Shown here one piece after another: positions 21,407 to 45,144 of a stretch of DNA of 64,000 nt. This stretch comes from an uncultured Pelagibacteraceae bacterium (GTDB lineage: Bacteria > Pseudomonadota > Alphaproteobacteria > Pelagibacterales > Pelagibacteraceae). Below the pieces are notes generated by a model that ran no database searches, had not been told where the DNA came from, and was given only the letters and a program-made list of their open reading frames with translations. Numbering within the stretch: position 1 is the stretch's first letter; each line of letters begins with the position of its first letter. The stretch is taken from contig CACGWQ010000004.1 in the NCBI GenBank assembly GCA_902576815.1, positions 1 through 64,000 of the forward strand, given 5' to 3'. A program made the position numbers and the translations under genes.

Positions 21407-22183
21407 ATGGGCAAAATTAACTTAGCCATAACAGGATGTATGGGAAGAATGGGTCAACAGCTCATTAAATCCGCCACTAAAGATAAATCTACTAAATTAG
21501 TTGCTCTTACGGAAAATAGATTAATTAAAAAAAGAATTCGTGGAATTAAGCCTGAATTAAATAGTGAAAAAGCTCTAAGCAAAACTGATGTGATAATAGA
21601 TTTCACAGTACCAAAATGTACATTCGAAGTTTTAAAGATTGCAACAAAATTAAAAAAGAAAGTTGTTATTGGTACAACAGGTTTTACAAAAAAAGAAGAA
21701 GATTTAATAAAGAAATTTTCGAAAAAGATAGCAGTTTTAAAAGCTGGAAATATGAGCCTTGGAATTAATTTACTCATGTACTTAACTGAGATTACATCAT
21801 CATCGCTTGGCAATAATTACCTAAGCAAAGTTTTTGAGGTTCATCACAAACATAAAAAAGATTATCCATCTGGTACTGCCTTAATGCTCGGAAAGGGAAT
21901 TGCTGTAGGAAAAAATAAAGACTTTTACAAAATGATTGGAAAAAAATATTTGAATAAAAAAAAGTTTCCTTATGGAAAAAAAATTAATTTCAATTCAATC
22001 AGAAAAGGTGAGATTATTGGAGAACACGAAGTTACTTTTTCAAGTGGGAAAGAAATAATTAAACTAAATCATGAAGCTTTTGACAGAGCTTTGTATTCAG
22101 ATGGAGCAATAACCGCTGCCAAATGGTTAATTAATAAAAAGCCAGGTCTCTATTCAATGAGAAATCTTCTGAACTTTAAATAA
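21407..22183 (+). CDS. dapB: 4-hydroxy-tetrahydrodipicolinate reductase
   Basis: ITGCMGRMGQQLIK...VIIDFTVPK...EVHHKHKKDYPSGTAL. Confidence 0.96.
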   Translation: MGKINLAITGCMGRMGQQLIKSATKDKSTKLVALTENRLIKKRIRGIKPELNSEKALSKTDVIIDFTVPKCTFEVLKIATKLKKKVVIGTTGFTKKEEDLIKKFSKKIAVLKAGNMSLGINLLMYLTEITSSSLGNNYLSKVFEVHHKHKKDYPSGTALMLGKGIAVGKNKDFYKMIGKKYLNKKKFPYGKKINFNSIRKGEIIGEHEVTFSSGKEIIKLNHEAFDRALYSDGAITAAKWLINKKPGLYSMRNLLNFK

Positions 22184-31557: not shown

Positions 31558-32531
31558 TGATATATAAACCACATGAAATAAGTAATAAATCTATTACAAA
31601 GGGCATATTATTATTACACGGCCTTAATGAAGGGTACAAAATTGAAATAATTAAATCACTATGTGAGGCTAGAAAGAATTCTGAAATAATAAAATATGAG
31701 GAAAATGAAGCAATAAGTAACAAAGAGAATGTTTTTAAGGAATTGAATAACCAATCTTTATTTATTCAAGAAAAAACAATTATAATAAGTAGAATTTCTA
31801 ATAAATTTTATAATTTTGTTGAAGATATTAAAGATCTAAATTTTAATAATATATTGATAATTCTAAATTCAGATAGTTTAGAAAAAAAATCAAAATTAAG
31901 GCAATTGATTGAAAAGCATAAATTGCACTCATGTATTGCTTTTTATGAAGATAATGCCGATACGTTATTAAGAATTATTGATAAACGATTAAATGAAAAT
32001 AAAATTAAATTATCAAATGAAAGTAAATCATTAATTATTGAAAGAAGTAGTGGCGATAGAATAAATCTATTAAATGAATTAGATAAAATAATAAACTTAA
32101 GTTTAACAAAAAGTAAGATTGAAATAGATGATGTTATGCAATTAAGTAACATGAGTAGTGATTACAGTGTTTTTGAATTAGTTGAGAATTATTTATCAAA
32201 AAATAAGAAAAAAATAGCAAAAATATTAAATGAAAGTAATTATAAAAATGAGGACTGCGTATTAATAACAAGAACACTATTAAATAGATTAAAGAGATTA
32301 TTAAAATTATCATCAAACTTCGAAAAAAATAACAATGTTAGCTTAACAATATCAACTTTTAAACCACCAATTTTTTGGAAAGAAAAGGAAATTGTTGCAA
32401 AACAAATACGTTTATGGGACTCAAAAAATATAAGAGAAAAAATATATGAAATTTACGATTTAGAAATAAATATTAAAAAAAATACTTATAATTCTTTTAA
32501 TATTCTCTCAGATTTTGTTTTAAATTTTTAG
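31557..32531 (+). CDS. holA: DNA polymerase III delta subunit
   Basis: LLHGLNEGYKIEIIKSL...IIERSSGDRINLLNELDKI; synteny with lptE. Confidence 0.9.
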   Translation: MIYKPHEISNKSITKGILLLHGLNEGYKIEIIKSLCEARKNSEIIKYEENEAISNKENVFKELNNQSLFIQEKTIIISRISNKFYNFVEDIKDLNFNNILIILNSDSLEKKSKLRQLIEKHKLHSCIAFYEDNADTLLRIIDKRLNENKIKLSNESKSLIIERSSGDRINLLNELDKIINLSLTKSKIEIDDVMQLSNMSSDYSVFELVENYLSKNKKKIAKILNESNYKNEDCVLITRTLLNRLKRLLKLSSNFEKNNNVSLTISTFKPPIFWKEKEIVAKQIRLWDSKNIREKIYEIYDLEINIKKNTYNSFNILSDFVLNF

Positions 32532-33379
32532 TAATTCTCTTTAATAATTTTAATCAATCTCTCTAATTGATCTAGTTCTTTGTATTCTAAAATAAAGGCT
32601 CCACTATTATTTTTTTTATTTTTTAAAAAAACATTCAGACCAGTTTTCTCTGACAATTCCTTTTCTAAATTAACAATATTAACATCTCTTTTTAAGTTTG
32701 ATCTTAAAGAGGAGTGTTTTAATAGTCTTATTAAATTTTCAGTTTGCCTGACAGACAATTTTTTTGATATTATCTTATCGGCTATTATATCTGCATTTTC
32801 TACCCCGACCAATACTTTAGCATGCCCATAAGATAAGTTACCTTCGACAATATAGTTTTTTAATTTTTCTGATAGGCTCAATAATCGCAAACAATTTGAA
32901 ATATGAGATCTGCTTTTCCCAATAAATTTTGAAACCTTGTATTGATCATAACTAAATTCATCAATAAGTCGCTGGTAGCTAGTCGCCTCTTCAATAATAT
33001 TTAAATCTTTTCTTTGAACATTTTCTATGATTGCAAATTCCAGTGATTTCAAATTATCGATATCGATTATTATTACAGGTATCTCATGTAAACCTGCTCT
33101 CTGGGCTGCTTGCCATCTTCTTTCTCCAGCGACAATCTCATATTTACCGTTTTCATCTTTTGAATGTCTAACAATAATTGGTTGTAATATACCTCTTTCT
33201 TTTATTGAATTAGCTAACTCCTCTAGATCCAAATTATCAAATTTTTTTCTTGGTTGAAACTTGTTAGGTATAATTGAACTTATAGACATTTTATTTGTCT
33301 CTTGCTTTAAGTTTGAGTCCCCTATCAATGATGACAGTCCTCTACCTAATCCCCTTTTATTCTTGAAAGGATTAATCAC
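32528..33379 (-). CDS. parB: Chromosome partitioning protein ParB
   Basis: GLGRGLSSLIGD...IIPNKFQPRKKFD...YEIVAGERRWQAAQRAGLHEIPVII. Confidence 0.97.
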   Translation of the reverse strand: MINPFKNKRGLGRGLSSLIGDSNLKQETNKMSISSIIPNKFQPRKKFDNLDLEELANSIKERGILQPIIVRHSKDENGKYEIVAGERRWQAAQRAGLHEIPVIIIDIDNLKSLEFAIIENVQRKDLNIIEEATSYQRLIDEFSYDQYKVSKFIGKSRSHISNCLRLLSLSEKLKNYIVEGNLSYGHAKVLVGVENADIIADKIISKKLSVRQTENLIRLLKHSSLRSNLKRDVNIVNLEKELSEKTGLNVFLKNKKNNSGAFILEYKELDQLERLIKIIKENY

Positions 33380-34176
33380 GCAGCACTCTCCACTTGTTTG
33401 TCCTGTTCTAAAAATTCCTCAGTAAATTTGAAGTAAGCCTTGCTACCTGGACAAATCTTATCGTACAATAATACTGGTATACCATGAGATGGGGCCTCTG
33501 AGAGCCTAACATTTCTTGGAACCGCAGTAGAGTATACTTTTTCCTTAAAATAATTTCTTGCTTCTATCTCAACTTGTCCTGAGAGCTTATTTCTTTTATC
33601 AAACATTGTAAGAAGTATCCCCCTTATCTCTAGTGATGGATTTAAGTTAAACTTTATTCTATCGATTGTTTTCATAAGTTGAGTTAACCCCTCCAATGCA
33701 AAAAATTCTGTCTGAAGTGGTACTACTAAAGCATCCGAAGCCACTAATGCCATAATTGTCAGCAGACTTAGTGATGGAGGGCAATCGATTAAGATATAAT
33801 CATATGACGCTCCAGAATCATTTAAAATCGGGGTTAATTCATCTTTCAATTTAAAAGCTCTACGATTATCTCCGGCTGTTTCTACCTCAAGTCCTGATAA
33901 ATCTACATTAGATGTGATTAAATTCAGGTTGTCAAAATTTGTTTCTTGGACTACTTCTAAAATTTTTTTATTTCCATTAAGGACACTATAAATAGTGGTT
34001 TCCGAATTTGTAGTATTTGATAGACCGAGACCAGTTGTTGCATTTCCTTGAGGATCAAGGTCTATGACTAATATTTTTTTTCCTTTCATAGACAAACCAG
34101 CCGCAAGATTGATTACTGTAGTAGTCTTCCCAACACCTCCTTTTTGATTTATTACCGAAATAATTTTTTTATCCAT
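33376..34176 (-). CDS. parA: Chromosome partitioning ATPase ParA
   Basis: ISVINQKGGVGKTTTVINLAAGL...DLDPQGNATTG. Confidence 0.98.
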   Translation of the reverse strand: MDKKIISVINQKGGVGKTTTVINLAAGLSMKGKKILVIDLDPQGNATTGLGLSNTTNSETTIYSVLNGNKKILEVVQETNFDNLNLITSNVDLSGLEVETAGDNRRAFKLKDELTPILNDSGASYDYILIDCPPSLSLLTIMALVASDALVVPLQTEFFALEGLTQLMKTIDRIKFNLNPSLEIRGILLTMFDKRNKLSGQVEIEARNYFKEKVYSTAVPRNVRLSEAPSHGIPVLLYDKICPGSKAYFKFTEEFLEQDKQVESAA

Positions 34177-34211: not shown

Positions 34212-34862
34212 TCATTTTGAAATTTTTTTTTCTCTTAGGTTGGAAATTTTAACAATTACAGATTCATCGTTTGTTAAACTTCTTTTTTCCTCATAATCAA
34301 ATTTCCATGTTTCGAGAGCATCATCTAAAATTTTTTTTCCACTTTTGCCTAAAAACAAAATAATATACTTAAAATTTTTAAAATTATTTTTTGCGATTTG
34401 GAAAATTATAGGCAAAGGTTTAAATGCTCTTGAAATAATTACGTCTGTACATAAATTTTTTTCGTTAAAAATATTTTTTTGATGAATTTCTGAGTTTAAA
34501 TTAAATTTTTTTGTCATTTCTTTTAAAAAAACACTCTTGTGATAGCTTTTTTCATAGAAAATTAGCTTAAATAGTGGTTTTTTTGGTTTCATCAATATAC
34601 CCAAAACTATACCAGGTAGCCCAGCTCCCGACCCAAGATCTGTACATATTTTGATATCATTTTTATCAATAAAATCAATAGTTTGTGCACTATCTTCAAT
34701 ATGCCTTGAATTTATTGATTTTTCTGTGCTTTTGCTGATTAAATTTATGCTTTTATTTTTTGAGATAATCGCTTTTGAGTAATCTTCAAGTTCTTTGTAT
34801 GTTTCACGTGAAACATTTGTGAGTTTAAAATTATATATTTTTATAAAATTCGAATCAATCAA
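34212..34862 (-). CDS. rsmG: 16S rRNA (guanine-N7)-methyltransferase RsmG
   Basis: [13 protein letters not shown]...SRHIEDSAQ...[17 protein letters not shown]. Confidence 0.96.
34800..34815. promoter_or_regulatory. parS: parS site, perfect TGTTTCACGTGAAACA
   Basis: Exact 16-bp palindrome inside rsmG, next to parAB. Confidence 0.95.
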
Positions 34863-36736
34863 GCTATATGCTTAATAGACTTTCTTTTAAGATGAGACAA
34901 CAAAATATATACTGCTGCAGGTGTAATTCCATCAATTCTCAAGGCCTGACCCATTGTTTTAGGTCTAATTTTCTTGAATTTTGACTTTACCTCATTAGAT
35001 AGTCCAGAAAAATCATCATAATTAAGGTTATTTGGAATAATTAAATTTTCATCTCTTTTAAAAGCCAAAATATCTGATTTCTGTTTTTTTAAATAACCTT
35101 TATAATGTGAATTAATTTCTAATTGCTCATCTATTTCACGTGAAACATACTTAATTTCAGGCCAAATTTCTCTTATTTTAAACATATTTACTGATTTTTG
35201 TCCTAATACCTGATTTGCAGACCTACTAATTCCATCTTTTGCTATATTAATCCCAAATCTTTCTACTTTTGAAGGAGTTATCTTTAATTTATCCATTTGA
35301 TTCTGAATTTTTGATAATTGAAGGTATTTCTCTTTATATATTCTCTTTCTTTCTTTATTTACAATTCCGATTTTTATGCCTTTTTTAGTTAATCTCACAT
35401 CTGCATTATCAGATCTTAACGAAAGTCTATATTCAGCTCTTGATGTGAACATCCTGTAAGGTTCTGCTACACCTTTAGTTACGAGGTCATCTATCATAAC
35501 ACCTATATACGCCTCTGATCTATCTAAAATAAATGGTTCTTCACCTTTAAAAGCAAGAGCTGCATTTGCCCCTGCTATCAATCCTTGCGCAGCTGCTTCT
35601 TCATATCCTGTTGTTCCATTGATTTGGCCTGCAAGATATAGATTTTTTATTTTTTTAGTCTCTAATGTTAAAAAAAGTTCCCTTGGGTCAACAAAATCGT
35701 ATTCAATAGCATATCCAGGCCTTAAAATTTTAACGTTTTCTAAACCATTGATTTTATTGCATATTTCTTGTTGTACATCAGCTGGTAAAGATGTTGAAAT
35801 ACCATTTGGATAAATTGTGTGATCATTTAAGCCTTCTGGTTCTAGAAAAATTTGATGTCTCTGCTTATCTGCAAATTTTTTTATTTTATCCTCTATAGAT
35901 GGGCAATATCTTGGACCAACTCCTTTTATGCTTCCAGAATACATAGCGCTTCGCTTTATATTTTTTGAAATAATTTTATGAACTTCATCATTTGTATAAG
36001 TGATACGACATGAAATTTGTTTATTAAAATTTTTTTTAGTTAAGAATGAAAAGAAGTATGGATCATCATCTGCATGTTGCTCCTCTAAGCTTTCAAAATT
36101 TATTGTACGGGCATCTAATCTTGGGGGAGTTCCAGTTTTTAATCGTCCAATTTTAAATTCATATTTTTCTAATTGCTCGCTCAAACCTGTTGAAGGTTTC
36201 TCATTAAATCTTCCAGCGGGAGTTTTTTCCTCACCAATATGAATTAAACCATTTAAAAAAGTGCCAGTTGTTAAAATTATCTTTGATGATATGATTTCTT
36301 TACCAGATTGCGTTTTAAAACCAATTAAACTGTTATTTAGAAAATTAAATCTAATTACAGGATCTGAAAAAATGCTTAAATTACAGTAGTTTACAAGTTT
36401 TTCTTGCATATATTTTTTATATAGAGATCTATCACTTTGTGTTCTTGGTCCTCTCACAGCTGGGCCCCTGCTTCTATTAAGCAATCTAAATTGTATACCT
36501 GATTTATCTGCTACAACCCCCATGACACCATCTAATGCATCTATCTCTCTAACCAGATGCCCTTTGCCCAAACCTCCGATGGCTGGGTTACAAGACATTT
36601 CTCCAATGGTATCAAATTTGTGTGTGAATAGGGCAGTGTTAACTCCCAATCTTGCTGATGCTGTTGCTGCTTCACAACCTGCATGTCCACCTCCTATTAC
36701 AACAACATCAAAAGATAATTCATTTTTCATAGACAT
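34859..36736 (-). CDS. mnmG: tRNA uridine 5-carboxymethylaminomethyl modification enzyme MnmG (GidA)
   Basis: [23 protein letters not shown]...; full length. Confidence 0.98.
35132..35147. promoter_or_regulatory. parS: Second parS-like site TATTTCACGTGAAACA (one mismatch)
   Basis: 15/16 match to consensus parS, inside mnmG. Confidence 0.88.
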
Positions 36737-39506: not shown

Positions 39507-39947
39507 TTATAAAGGCTTATAAATTACAACAAAAATGATCAAAATGAGCAATAATGTTGGTATTTCGTTGATAATTCTAAAATATTTAGGAGAGTGAATA
39601 TTCTCGTTTAATTTAAACTTATTAAGAATTCGCCCTAAATAGAAATGGTAAGCGGTAAGTATTAAAACTAAAATTATTTTTAATAACATCCACTTTTGCC
39701 CTAATTGCTGAAACCCTATGCTATGTATTAATAACAAACCAAAGAGCCAGGACAAGATCATGGCAGGTGTCATAATATAAAAATATAATTTTCTCTCCAT
39801 AGTTTTGAATATCCCAGAAGTTATTGGTTCTGAAAAATTTTCAGCGTGATAAACAAAAATTCTTGGAAGGTATAACAATCCAGCCATCCATGATATTACT
39901 GCAATTAAATGCAATGACTTAAACAAGAGATAAAAATTCATTATCAA
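39507..39947 (-). CDS. hemJ: HemJ-type protoporphyrinogen oxidase (UPF0093)
   Basis: FKSLHLIAVISWMAGLLYLPRIFVYHAE...; adjacent to hemH/hemE. Confidence 0.92.
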   Translation of the reverse strand: MIMNFYLLFKSLHLIAVISWMAGLLYLPRIFVYHAENFSEPITSGIFKTMERKLYFYIMTPAMILSWLFGLLLIHSIGFQQLGQKWMLLKIILVLILTAYHFYLGRILNKFKLNENIHSPKYFRIINEIPTLLLILIIFVVIYKPL

Positions 39948-40933
39948 ATATTTCGCTTTATTAGAGTGTTTAATAATTTTATATGATCATCATTATCATT
40001 AAGACATGGTATCATATCAAAATTTTCTCCTCCAGATTCCATAAAACTTTCCTTGCCTTGAATTGAAATTTCTTCTAAGGTTTCAACACAATCTGATGAA
40101 AAACCAGGACAAATAGTAAGGACATTTTTTATTCCTTTCTTTGGTAGTTCTTCTAAAGTCTTATCAGTATAGGGTTTAAGCCATTCTTGTGGACCAAATC
40201 TTGATTGAAATGTTGTTTTAATTTCGATGGAAGTAAATTTTTCTGAAATAAGTCTTGTCGTCTTATGACAATAACAATGGTATGGATCTCCTTTATCAAA
40301 ATATTTTTTGGGTATACCGTGATATGATGCCAAAATTAAATCTGGTTTCCAACTTAAAGTCTTTATTTTATTATTTATGGAATTAACCAAAGCTTCGATA
40401 TAAAAAGGTTCAGATTCATAATGAGGAATAATTTTAAGCGAAGGTTGCCATCTCATTTTCATTAATGTTCTATATACTTCATCACACACAGTTGCTGTTG
40501 TCGCGGCCGCATATTGAGGGTACAGAGGTAGTATTATAAGGTTTTCACATCCATCATCATGAAGAGCCTTTATTTTGCTTTTAATACTCGGGTTTCCATA
40601 CCTCATAGCAAAATCAACAACTAAATTTTTATCAGACATGTTTTTTGAAACTTTTTCTGTTTGTTTTAAAGTATAATACAAAAGCGGGGACATATTTATA
40701 TCCTTCATCCATATCTCCTTGTAAGCTTTTGCAGTTTTTGATGGTCTAAAATTTAAAATGAAAGTATTTAAAATAATTTTCCATAAAATAGGGTTGATTT
40801 CTATTACTCTTCTGTCTGATAAAAATTCTTTTAAGTATTTTCTTATATCAAGCCAGTTTGTGGAGTCGGGAGTTCCAAGATTTATTAATAAAACTCCTGT
40901 TTTACCAAAATTTATTTTAGGGTGATTTTCCAT
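39944..40933 (-). CDS. hemH: Ferrochelatase
   Basis: GVLLINLGTPDS...ILASYHGIPKKYFDKGDPYHCYCHKT...CPGFSSDCVETLEEI. Confidence 0.97.
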   Translation of the reverse strand: MENHPKINFGKTGVLLINLGTPDSTNWLDIRKYLKEFLSDRRVIEINPILWKIILNTFILNFRPSKTAKAYKEIWMKDINMSPLLYYTLKQTEKVSKNMSDKNLVVDFAMRYGNPSIKSKIKALHDDGCENLIILPLYPQYAAATTATVCDEVYRTLMKMRWQPSLKIIPHYESEPFYIEALVNSINNKIKTLSWKPDLILASYHGIPKKYFDKGDPYHCYCHKTTRLISEKFTSIEIKTTFQSRFGPQEWLKPYTDKTLEELPKKGIKNVLTICPGFSSDCVETLEEISIQGKESFMESGGENFDMIPCLNDNDDHIKLLNTLIKRNI

Positions 40934-41934
40934 TATGTAAAATCTCTAACAATTTTTATTAATTCGTGTACCATCTCTATTTTTGTTTCAGGCAAAATAC
41001 CATGGCCCAAATTGAATACATAAGGATGATCTTTAAAGACTCTAAGGTATTTGTTTACTTCTAAATTTAGATTTTCTCTGTTTGTAAGTAGTATTTTTGG
41101 ATCTAAGCCACCCTGAATTGGTATTTTTATTTTATTTAATAAATCTTTTGGTTCGATATTATAGTCTATGTTTATCATATTTGGTCTAACTTCATCACAA
41201 AATTTATTGTAGTCTGAAATTCCTCTAGGAAAGCAAATAACAGGTACCCCTAGACTTTTCGTATATTCAACCAAAGAAGTTGTGGGTTCGTATAGATATT
41301 TACTTAAATCTTTATTTACCAATCCCGCCCAGCTATCAAAAATCTGAATTAATGTTGCTCCTGACTCAATTTGTTTTCTTATATGTATTTTAATAAATTT
41401 ATCTAATATTTTTAAAGTTTTACTTATTAAATCTTTATCATGAAAAAAAACTTTAGATAGGCCGTTTTTTGGTGATAATTTATTTAGCATATAGACAAGT
41501 AGTGTCCATGGTGCACCTACAAAACCAATTAAGTCTTTGTTTTTTAATTTCTTATTATTCTTTAAATTTTCTAAAAGTCTATAAATTGGGTCTAATCTAG
41601 ATTTAAAATCATTTTCATCTAAATCTAATATGTTATTTATATTTAAATTCCCAAGCTTGGGGCCAAAATTTTTTTTAAACTCAACATCTTGACCCATGCC
41701 ATAAGGAATCATTAGAATATCCGAAAATATTATAGCAGCATCGAAGTCAAATCTGTCTATAGGTTGTAAAGTAATAGTTTCAGAAAGTTCCTCATTTAAA
41801 CATAAATCAATAAAATTTGGATTTTTTTTCCTAATTTCTCTAAATTCAGGCAGATACCTTCCTGCTTGTCTCATTAACCATATAGGATTAATATCTGTTT
41901 TATTATTTATTAAACATTCTTTAATTGGCGTCAT
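40933..41934 (-). CDS. hemE: Uroporphyrinogen decarboxylase
   Basis: PIWLMRQAGRYLPEFREIR...GFVGAPWTLLVYML...NLGHGILPET. Confidence 0.97.
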   Translation of the reverse strand: MTPIKECLINNKTDINPIWLMRQAGRYLPEFREIRKKNPNFIDLCLNEELSETITLQPIDRFDFDAAIIFSDILMIPYGMGQDVEFKKNFGPKLGNLNINNILDLDENDFKSRLDPIYRLLENLKNNKKLKNKDLIGFVGAPWTLLVYMLNKLSPKNGLSKVFFHDKDLISKTLKILDKFIKIHIRKQIESGATLIQIFDSWAGLVNKDLSKYLYEPTTSLVEYTKSLGVPVICFPRGISDYNKFCDEVRPNMINIDYNIEPKDLLNKIKIPIQGGLDPKILLTNRENLNLEVNKYLRVFKDHPYVFNLGHGILPETKIEMVHELIKIVRDFT

Positions 41935-42212
41935 TTATTCTAAGAATATATATTAAGATTTAGTATTAGTATGAATTGTAAATAACGTAAATTACTCAAA
42001 TTAAACAAATTATACACTATTTATACATTATTAACCGTCATAAGTGCACTAAATACTTAGTTATTTGATATTTATAATAATATCAAAATAGTGGATAAAA
42101 TATTCACATTTATAATTATGTTAATTAAACAATTATAAATAATAAATATTTGATCTGCTTGCTTAAATAATAATATTTCTTATTTTGTTAATAAATTATA
42201 GACAAGTTATAC
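41935..42212. other. Putative chromosomal replication origin (oriC)
   Basis: Very AT-rich intergenic region at the hemE|ppsR junction. DnaA-box-like 9-mers: TTATACACT 42010-42018, TTATACATT 42021-42029, TTATCCACT on minus 42090-42098, ATATTCACA 42100-42108, TTATACATG 42207-42215. Flanking genes diverge. Confidence 0.78.
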
Positions 42213-43034
42213 ATGAAAAACACACACCAAGTTTATTTAATTTCGGACTCCACAGGAGAAACACTTGATAGAATTTTTATGGCTCTAAAAGCCCAATTCA
42301 ATAATTTTACTTATGAATTAAATCAATACTCTTTCACAAGAACAGAAAATCAAATATCAACGATATTAAATAAAGCTATTAATCAAGATAGTCCCATAAT
42401 ATTATACACCGTAGTTAATAGTAAACTTGCAAAATTTCTTGCGGAAGAAGCAAATAGAAAAAAAATACCTTGTTTTGGTGTTCTAGGTGATTTAATATTA
42501 AATTTTTCAAAAATATTAAATCAAAAAGCCACACATCAACCCAGCGCTCAACACGTTCTAGATGAAGATTACTATAAAAGAATTGAGGCGATACAATTTA
42601 CAATGAGCCACGATGATGGAAATAATACAGAAAATATTTTAGAATCGGATATAATTTTAGTTGGTGTTAGCCGTACTAGTAAAACACCTACGTCTATTTA
42701 CCTAGCCAACAAAGGCCTCAAAACATCGAACATACCTTTGGTTAACGAAATGAATATCCCTAATGATATTACAAATTCCAAAAAAATTTGTGTAATAGGA
42801 TTAACAACCGAAGCTGAAAGGTTATTTGATATTCGAAGGAATAGATTAAACTCAATAAAAGAAAACGAAGCTTCAGACTACACAAATTTAGAGAAAATTA
42901 AGGCTGAAGTATTACAATCTAAAAAGATATTTAAGCAAAACAAGTGGCCTACAATTGATGTTACGAGGAAATCCGTCGAAGAAACTGCTGCATCAATAAT
43001 TAAAATCTATGAAATAAAAAATAAAAATGCATAA
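42213..43034 (+). CDS. ppsR: Pyruvate,phosphate dikinase/PEP synthase regulatory protein (DUF299)
   Basis: YLISDSTGETLDRI...DIILVGVSRTSKTPTSIYLANKGLKTSNIPLV. Confidence 0.95.
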   Translation: MKNTHQVYLISDSTGETLDRIFMALKAQFNNFTYELNQYSFTRTENQISTILNKAINQDSPIILYTVVNSKLAKFLAEEANRKKIPCFGVLGDLILNFSKILNQKATHQPSAQHVLDEDYYKRIEAIQFTMSHDDGNNTENILESDIILVGVSRTSKTPTSIYLANKGLKTSNIPLVNEMNIPNDITNSKKICVIGLTTEAERLFDIRRNRLNSIKENEASDYTNLEKIKAEVLQSKKIFKQNKWPTIDVTRKSVEETAASIIKIYEIKNKNA

Positions 43035-43611: not shown

Positions 43612-44420
43612 AACAATATTTAGTGATAGGTAAACCGATTGAACACTCGTTATCACCAGCACTTCATAATTATTGGATTAAGAGTAAAAATTTAGAAGCA
43701 ATTTATGGAAAATTGGAAGCGCACGAAAGCGATTTGGCCGAAATATGTAAAAATCTAAGAGAAGGTAAAATAAATGGGTTAAATGTAACGATTCCCTATA
43801 AAAAAACCATTATTCAGTACTTAGATGTCTTAAGTGAACACGCTCTAAAAACTCAATCCGTAAATACCATTACCATAAATAACGGAAATCTTGTAGGCCA
43901 CAATACTGATATTGATGGTTTTGAATTAAGTTTAGAAAAAATAAATTATAATGTATGCAATAAGACAGCATTAATACTTGGGGCCGGAGGAGTTGTGCCC
44001 TCAATAATATATGTATTAAAAAAAATGAAGGTCGGTAAAATTTTAATTAGCAATAGAACAAAAAAAAATGCCGAATATATGAAGCAGTTTTTTGATGATG
44101 TATCCATAATAAATTGGGGTGATATACCTAATTTTGATATAATTATTAACGCGACAAGCCTTGGCTTAAGACAAGGGGATAAGTTTGGAATTGATTTTAA
44201 CCAAAAAGAGAAAAACAAATTATTTTATGATGTAATTTATAATCCTCATCCAACAGAATTTTCAAGAGCAGGAAAAATTTTTGGCAACAAGCTTGAGAAC
44301 GGATTAAATATGTTTTTATTTCAAGCCCAAAAAGCATTTAATATTTGGCATAAAATCGAACCAGCAATTAACGACCAACTAAAGGAATTTTTAAAAATAA
44401 ATTATGAGATTAAAAAATAA
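43608..44420 (+). CDS. aroE: Shikimate dehydrogenase
   Basis: VIGKPIEHSLSPALHNYWI...GLNVTIPYKKTI...GHNTDIDGF. Confidence 0.96.
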   Translation: MKQYLVIGKPIEHSLSPALHNYWIKSKNLEAIYGKLEAHESDLAEICKNLREGKINGLNVTIPYKKTIIQYLDVLSEHALKTQSVNTITINNGNLVGHNTDIDGFELSLEKINYNVCNKTALILGAGGVVPSIIYVLKKMKVGKILISNRTKKNAEYMKQFFDDVSIINWGDIPNFDIIINATSLGLRQGDKFGIDFNQKEKNKLFYDVIYNPHPTEFSRAGKIFGNKLENGLNMFLFQAQKAFNIWHKIEPAINDQLKEFLKINYEIKK

Positions 44421-45144
44421 AATTGCAATTATTACTGGGGCAGCATCAGGATTTGGGAAAGGAATTGCAGAAAAATTCTCAAATGAAGGCGCAAAACTAA
44501 TACTAGTAGATATAAATAAAAAACTATTAAAGAATGTTGCTAAAAATTTATCTCAAGATTATTTTGTCGCTGATGTATCGAGTAATGATAATTTTAAATC
44601 CTTGCTAATCTATAGTTATAAGAAATATAAATCAGTAGATATAGTGGTAAACAACGCTGGTATAACTCACAACCCAAAACCAATGGAAAGTGTAACTGAA
44701 AAAGAATTCGATAAAGTTTTCAACGTTAATTCGAAATCTGTTTATTTCTGTGGAAAATATTTTGTACCTAAAATGAAAAAAAGTAAAAAAGGAGTTATTT
44801 TAAACGTTGCTTCAACGGCAGGAATATCACCTAGACCTAAGTTAAACTGGTATAATGCAAGCAAGGGATGGATGATTACTGCCACTAAAGCAATGGCAAT
44901 AGAATTAGCACCTTATAAAGTTAGAGTAAATGCAATAGCGCCAGTTGCAGGACAAACACCTTTATTAAAATCATTTATGGGCGGTAGTTCTCAAGGTAAA
45001 ATAAAGGCTTTCTTGTCAACAATTCCATTAGGTAGATTTTCAAATCCACAAGATATGGGAAATGCAGCCTGTTTTTTGTGCTCTGATGAAGCAAGCATGG
45101 TTACAGGAGCTATACTTGAAGTTGACGGTGGCAGATGTATTTAA
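44404..45144 (+). CDS. SDR-family oxidoreductase (FabG-like)
   Basis: IITGAASGFGKGIAEKF...NNAGITHNPK...YNASKGWMI. Confidence 0.93.
   Translation: MRLKNKIAIITGAASGFGKGIAEKFSNEGAKLILVDINKKLLKNVAKNLSQDYFVADVSSNDNFKSLLIYSYKKYKSVDIVVNNAGITHNPKPMESVTEKEFDKVFNVNSKSVYFCGKYFVPKMKKSKKGVILNVASTAGISPRPKLNWYNASKGWMITATKAMAIELAPYKVRVNAIAPVAGQTPLLKSFMGGSSQGKIKAFLSTIPLGRFSNPQDMGNAACFLCSDEASMVTGAILEVDGGRCI

Follow-up and report, generated by a model that had tools for sequence, protein, structure and literature searches.

The hemE-ppsR intergenic region

The window, a 64 kb stretch of DNA, belongs to contig C4 in an assembly of 1.02 Mb (76% complete) and contains an intergenic region between hemE and ppsR. 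The two genes are transcribed divergently away from this gap, whose GC content is 16.5% as compared with 28.2% for the window. This is the lowest GC content among the window's gaps of 120 bp or longer. Both its AT content and the genes that bound it, hemE and COG1806, are those of a Caulobacter-type origin of replication. An earlier note on this DNA had described a 278-bp AT-rich gap between hemE on the minus strand and ppsR on the plus strand, and its coordinates are exactly those found here.

40933–41934, minus strand: hemE (uroporphyrinogen decarboxylase), the left boundary gene
41935–42212, unstranded: predicted oriC intergenic region, 278 bp, 16.5% GC, with conserved hemE-gap-ppsR order and box enrichment
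42213–43034, plus strand: ppsR / COG1806 (DUF299), the right boundary gene

All genes from parB to hemE lie on the minus strand, as had been claimed. The run ppsR-maf-aroE-coaE-dnaQ is likewise on the plus strand as described; however, a short-chain dehydrogenase (SDR) gene between aroE and coaE (44404–45144) had gone unmentioned. This gene occupies the same place in four close relatives, where it is 80–83% identical, and in the complete congener G011 aroE and coaE adjoin without it. The hemH gene (39944–40933) is 29% identical to the hemH found at the same position in G011, whereas its neighbours hemE and hemJ are 60–76% identical and rho is 90% identical; this disparity suggests that hemH was replaced in one lineage. 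No Rfam families were found in the window.

DnaA-box-like sites

The gap contains six sites with no more than one mismatch from TTATNCACA, where 0.9 are expected, and at least six such sites were reached in none of 1000 first-order Markov shuffles of the gap. DnaA boxes are a feature of Caulobacter-type origins, and the gap is the densest 278-bp stretch of the window for these sites. Exact TTATNNACA occurs three times as compared with 0.34 expected (p 0.002). All five 9-mers that had been proposed as box-like, TTATACACT, TTATACATT, TTATCCACT, ATATTCACA and TTATACATG, are present in the gap, and the shuffles indicate that these are not chance occurrences. The boxes are nonetheless weak, with no exact TTATNCACA in the window's own gap. 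The runner-up cluster in the window (position 22180, about 22.2 kb; five sites) is mainly coding and was set aside. A looser box consensus (TTATNNACA with one mismatch or TTATCCACA with two) was dropped as a discriminator because it is too common in a genome of 28% GC. The box-like sites outside the module described below are as follows.

42010–42018, plus strand: DnaA-box-like TTATACACT (sequence match and alignment)
42021–42029, plus strand: DnaA-box-like TTATACATT (sequence match and alignment)
42090–42098, minus strand: DnaA-box-like TTATCCACT, which is TTATTAACA in most close relatives
42100–42108, plus strand: DnaA-box-like ATATTCACA, which is TTATTCACA in many close relatives
42119–42127, minus strand: box-like TAATTAACA, in a conserved ATGTTAATTAAA block
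42196–42204, plus strand: box-like TTATAGACA, which is TTATAAACA in relatives
42207–42215, plus strand: box-like TTATACATG, overlapping the ppsR start codon (ATG) and conserved genus-wide

A conserved trio and box module beside hemE

Conservation in the gap is highest over the 40 bp at 41962–42001, where the mean information content is 1.86 bits among 52 close relatives as compared with 1.39 for the whole gap; the value reaches 2.0 over 41985–41994 among close relatives. On the plus strand this segment reads, in order, TAG TAT TAG TAT, GAAT, TGTAAATAA and CGTAAATTA. The earlier note had overlooked this element, the gap's most conserved, which consists of a minus-strand box at 41977–41985 and the predicted DnaA-trios adjacent to it.

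41935–41960, unstranded: AT-rich flank beside hemE, a TATA-rich stretch conserved in both families
41961–41972, plus strand: predicted DnaA-trio repeats TAG TAT TAG TAT (3'-TAT GAT TAT GAT-5'), from the alignment of gaps
41973–41976, plus strand: spacer of 4 nt (GAAT) separating the trios from the box; in the sister family it includes G or C bases (TACC, TGCC or TTCC)
41977–41985, minus strand: trio-proximal DnaA box TTATTTACA (plus-strand reading TGTAAATAA), which is TTATCAACA, TTATTCACA or TTATCCACA in relatives
41986–41994, minus strand: adjoining half-conserved box (CGTAAATTA on the plus strand), nearly invariant in the close clade

In an alignment of 89 distinct gaps, each of the four TAN triplets keeps its T and its A at 83–98% and the third base varies; because the gaps are related by descent, these percentages cannot be read as independent counts. 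A strict pattern of three TAN triplets, 3–5 nt and TGTNNATAA, which was chosen after the alignment had been seen, occurs once in the window, within the gap. The same pattern occurs three times in G011, one of them inside its gap.

In E. coli, the geometry of R1 and the DUE places the trios 5' of the box when the box reads TGTNNATAA. The 5'-tail scaffolds of a published study (PMC8287927) fit the same arrangement, and for these two reasons we place the trios 5' of a box reading TGTNNATAA. A basal unwinding system (BUS) is known from B. subtilis and H. pylori (PMC8287927, PMC6669920, PMC7561715). It comprises a DnaA box, a spacer no longer than 16 nt and three or more NAN trinucleotides, mostly 3'-GAT-5' (PMC8287927, PMC6669920), with a GC-cluster preceding the trios (PMC7561715). 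By the published criteria, the DnaA box has at most two mismatches and lies 0–16 nt from three or more such trinucleotides, read 3' to 5'. Here the box is one mismatch from TTATNCACA and two from TTATCCACA, the spacer is 4 nt and there are four TAN triplets. As predicted from sequence, the layout of the module is therefore that of a BUS. The flank at 41935–41960 is a candidate for the unwinding stretch beyond the trios, and it probably also contains the hemE promoter.

Conservation in congeners and in a sister family

Every one of the 30 congeners with hemE has the order hemE-gap-ppsR, and so do 79 of 80 further database loci. The length of the gap is near-constant, at 261–285 bp in the first alignment (30 congeners) and 261–292 bp when every relative examined is included. 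Conservation extends to several box positions, together with the blocks around them, in 52 close and 30 wider relatives, which bears out the conservation expected of the proposed 9-mers.

In a sister family, represented by 20 order-level relatives, ppsR is absent at the locus and the order is hemE-gap-maf; no ppsR homologue was found by similarity in this family. The hemE-maf gap is 262–275 bp, the same size as that of the window. In the clearest members it carries, at the same distance from hemE, TAGTAGTAGTAG followed by a spacer (TTGTGCC or TTGTACC, for example) and TGTG boxes. In these members the module takes its textbook form of TAG-TAG-TAG-TAG, a short spacer ending in CC, and TGTG.

These gaps bear on whether the region is merely a divergent promoter or regulatory region of hemE and ppsR, to which DnaA may bind as a transcription factor. 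The gap does lie between two divergently transcribed genes, and conserved TATA-rich blocks stand beside both starts, where the hemE and ppsR promoters must be. However, promoter-like matches in the gap number three, below the shuffled mean of 6.6, and both gap size and the trio and box module persist where ppsR is absent. Since size and module survive the loss of a boundary gene, the sister family argues for a function of the gap itself rather than regulation of ppsR. Pairs of boxes in the gap are, moreover, unique chromosome-wide and lie within the skew plateau near parS, as described below. We consider a role limited to gene regulation highly improbable. A double function as promoter and oriC is possible and is compatible with an origin at this site.

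Position on the chromosome

The complete congener G011 (a single contig of 1,343,202 bp) stands in for whole-chromosome tests. Its cumulative GC skew is highest at 616 kb and lowest over a plateau at about 1.22–1.31 Mb, and its hemE-ppsR gap (1,261,949–1,262,209) falls inside this plateau. The GC-skew shift of a Caulobacter-type origin is therefore present in the congener, and the skew, which the earlier note had named as a check, is consistent with an origin at the locus. However, the plateau is about 90 kb wide and slightly deeper at 1.230 and 1.291 Mb, so it supports the region rather than the exact site, and GC skew was rejected as the sole locator of the origin. On a contig of the sister family the skew plateau is likewise broad.

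Two further signals are more local. The gap of G011 is the only 270-bp stretch of its chromosome with two exact TTATNCACA; the rival clusters, at 1.291 and 1.324 Mb, lie mostly in coding sequence. Sites for chromosome segregation also lie close to the gap.

32528–34176, minus strand: parB-parA, origin-segregation genes (assigned from translations; orthologues in the same order in G011)
34800–34815, plus strand: perfect parS TGTTTCACGTGAAACA, inside rsmG
35132–35147, plus strand: second parS with one mismatch, inside mnmG

The perfect parS of the window is 7.1 kb from the gap. Across the whole G011 chromosome there is a single parS (two mismatches allowed, 5 kb masked), at a distance of 7.2 kb from the gap. 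A 660 kb contig of a further relative (G037) likewise has a single site, which is about 10 kb from the gap beside hemE.

The true origin might instead lie at another point of the skew plateau, such as near dnaA, which is 62 kb from the gap in G011, or at the 1.291 Mb skew minimum. In keeping with such a location, the skew has similarly deep minima at 1.230 and 1.291 Mb, and there are a few box-like matches around 1.291 and 1.324 Mb, but these matches are mainly coding (the tsaD/hemC region and a coding end at 1.324 Mb). At dnaA the skew is higher, and parS is 55 kb away as compared with 7 kb from the gap. No box with at most one mismatch was found in the roughly 600 bp upstream of G011 dnaA, and a dnaA-adjacent origin was rejected on this ground. 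An origin elsewhere in the plateau thus seems to us extremely improbable. In the window's own assembly dnaA (PF00308) was not found, which most likely reflects the assembly's 76% completeness. The DnaA of relatives carries the usual RDHTT(V/I)IHS DNA-binding signature.

A predicted SAR11 origin of the Caulobacter type

The skew plateau, the conservation of the locus, the parS site at 7 kb and the persistence of the gap after ppsR loss all support the reading that had been put forward for this region. We conclude that the gap is very probably the chromosomal oriC of this Pelagibacteraceae (SAR11) bacterium, at the Caulobacter-type hemE/COG1806 position. The precedent invoked for an origin beside hemE is found in the literature, which places both C. 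crescentus Cori and the R. prowazekii origin between hemE and COG1806 (PMC1914354). What is new is a predicted SAR11 example of this known type of origin, and its novelty is modest because the known rule already predicts the location. We found no description of a SAR11 oriC in PMC papers, and a DoriC entry may exist.

The predicted origin resembles Cori in its boundary genes and their orientation, its AT-richness, its several DnaA boxes and the proximity of parAB and parS. In contrast to Cori, no strict CtrA site (TTAA-N7-TTAA), IHF consensus (WATCAN5WTR) or strict GANTC site was found in the gap; the first two belong to the Caulobacter-type pattern. CtrA sites are not strictly defining, because published predicted origins without them exist (PMC1914354) and Pelagibacter lacks ctrA. 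The gap is also shorter, at 278 bp as compared with more than 400 bp in C. crescentus and R. prowazekii (PMC1914354). The predicted origins of Rickettsia prowazekii and Wolbachia similarly lie beside hemE, are AT-rich and have few DnaA boxes, and some of these lineages have partly lost the boundary genes, as the SAR11 sister family has lost ppsR. However, CtrA and IHF sites form part of the basis for those predictions, and we found none in the SAR11 gap. With the BUS of B. subtilis, H. pylori and C. difficile the predicted module shares a box, a short spacer, at least three central-A trinucleotides and an AT-rich stretch beyond. It differs in that TAT alternates with TAG, the spacer GAAT is AT-rich, and the origin is not adjacent to dnaA.

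The suggestion that the initiation architecture might be reduced holds for the missing CtrA, IHF and GANTC sites but not for the unwinding module, which is conserved. Whether the SAR11 origin has been stripped to about 280 bp, shedding the CtrA/IHF layer and relying on a BUS-type module whose trios and boxes have drifted towards AT (TAT/TAG, non-consensus boxes), is in our estimate evenly balanced.

From the anatomy of the region and homology, DnaA would bind the minus-strand box at 41977–41985, aided by the adjoining half-box and the dispersed weak boxes. The DnaA filament would then extend onto the single strand bearing the TAG/TAT trinucleotides at 41961–41972 and melt the AT-rich stretch toward hemE, after which the helicase would be loaded. 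Segregation of the newly formed origins would then fall to ParB bound at the parS sites, 7 kb from the gap.

SAR11 bacteria are among the most abundant in the sea. A firm oriC would properly anchor peak-to-trough growth estimates from metagenomes. The two-family alignment also provides exact, testable DnaA-trio and box positions in alphaproteobacteria without CtrA, and reveals what is retained of a Caulobacter-type origin when the genome is streamlined.

Cell-cycle regulators

No match to CtrA above the curated cut-off of the family model (NF045991, which is derived from Rhodobacterales) was found in 41 genomes, and the matches below the cut-off are of the OmpR type. This result agrees with the published absence of ctrA from Pelagibacter (PMC2877005). 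GcrA is present in 37 of the 41 genomes, and SAR11 has a homologue of CcrM (PMC3973325). The CcrM target GANTC occurs 1642 times in the whole G011 chromosome as compared with about 3450 expected from base composition, a depletion that contrasts with the retention of GcrA in nearly all relatives.
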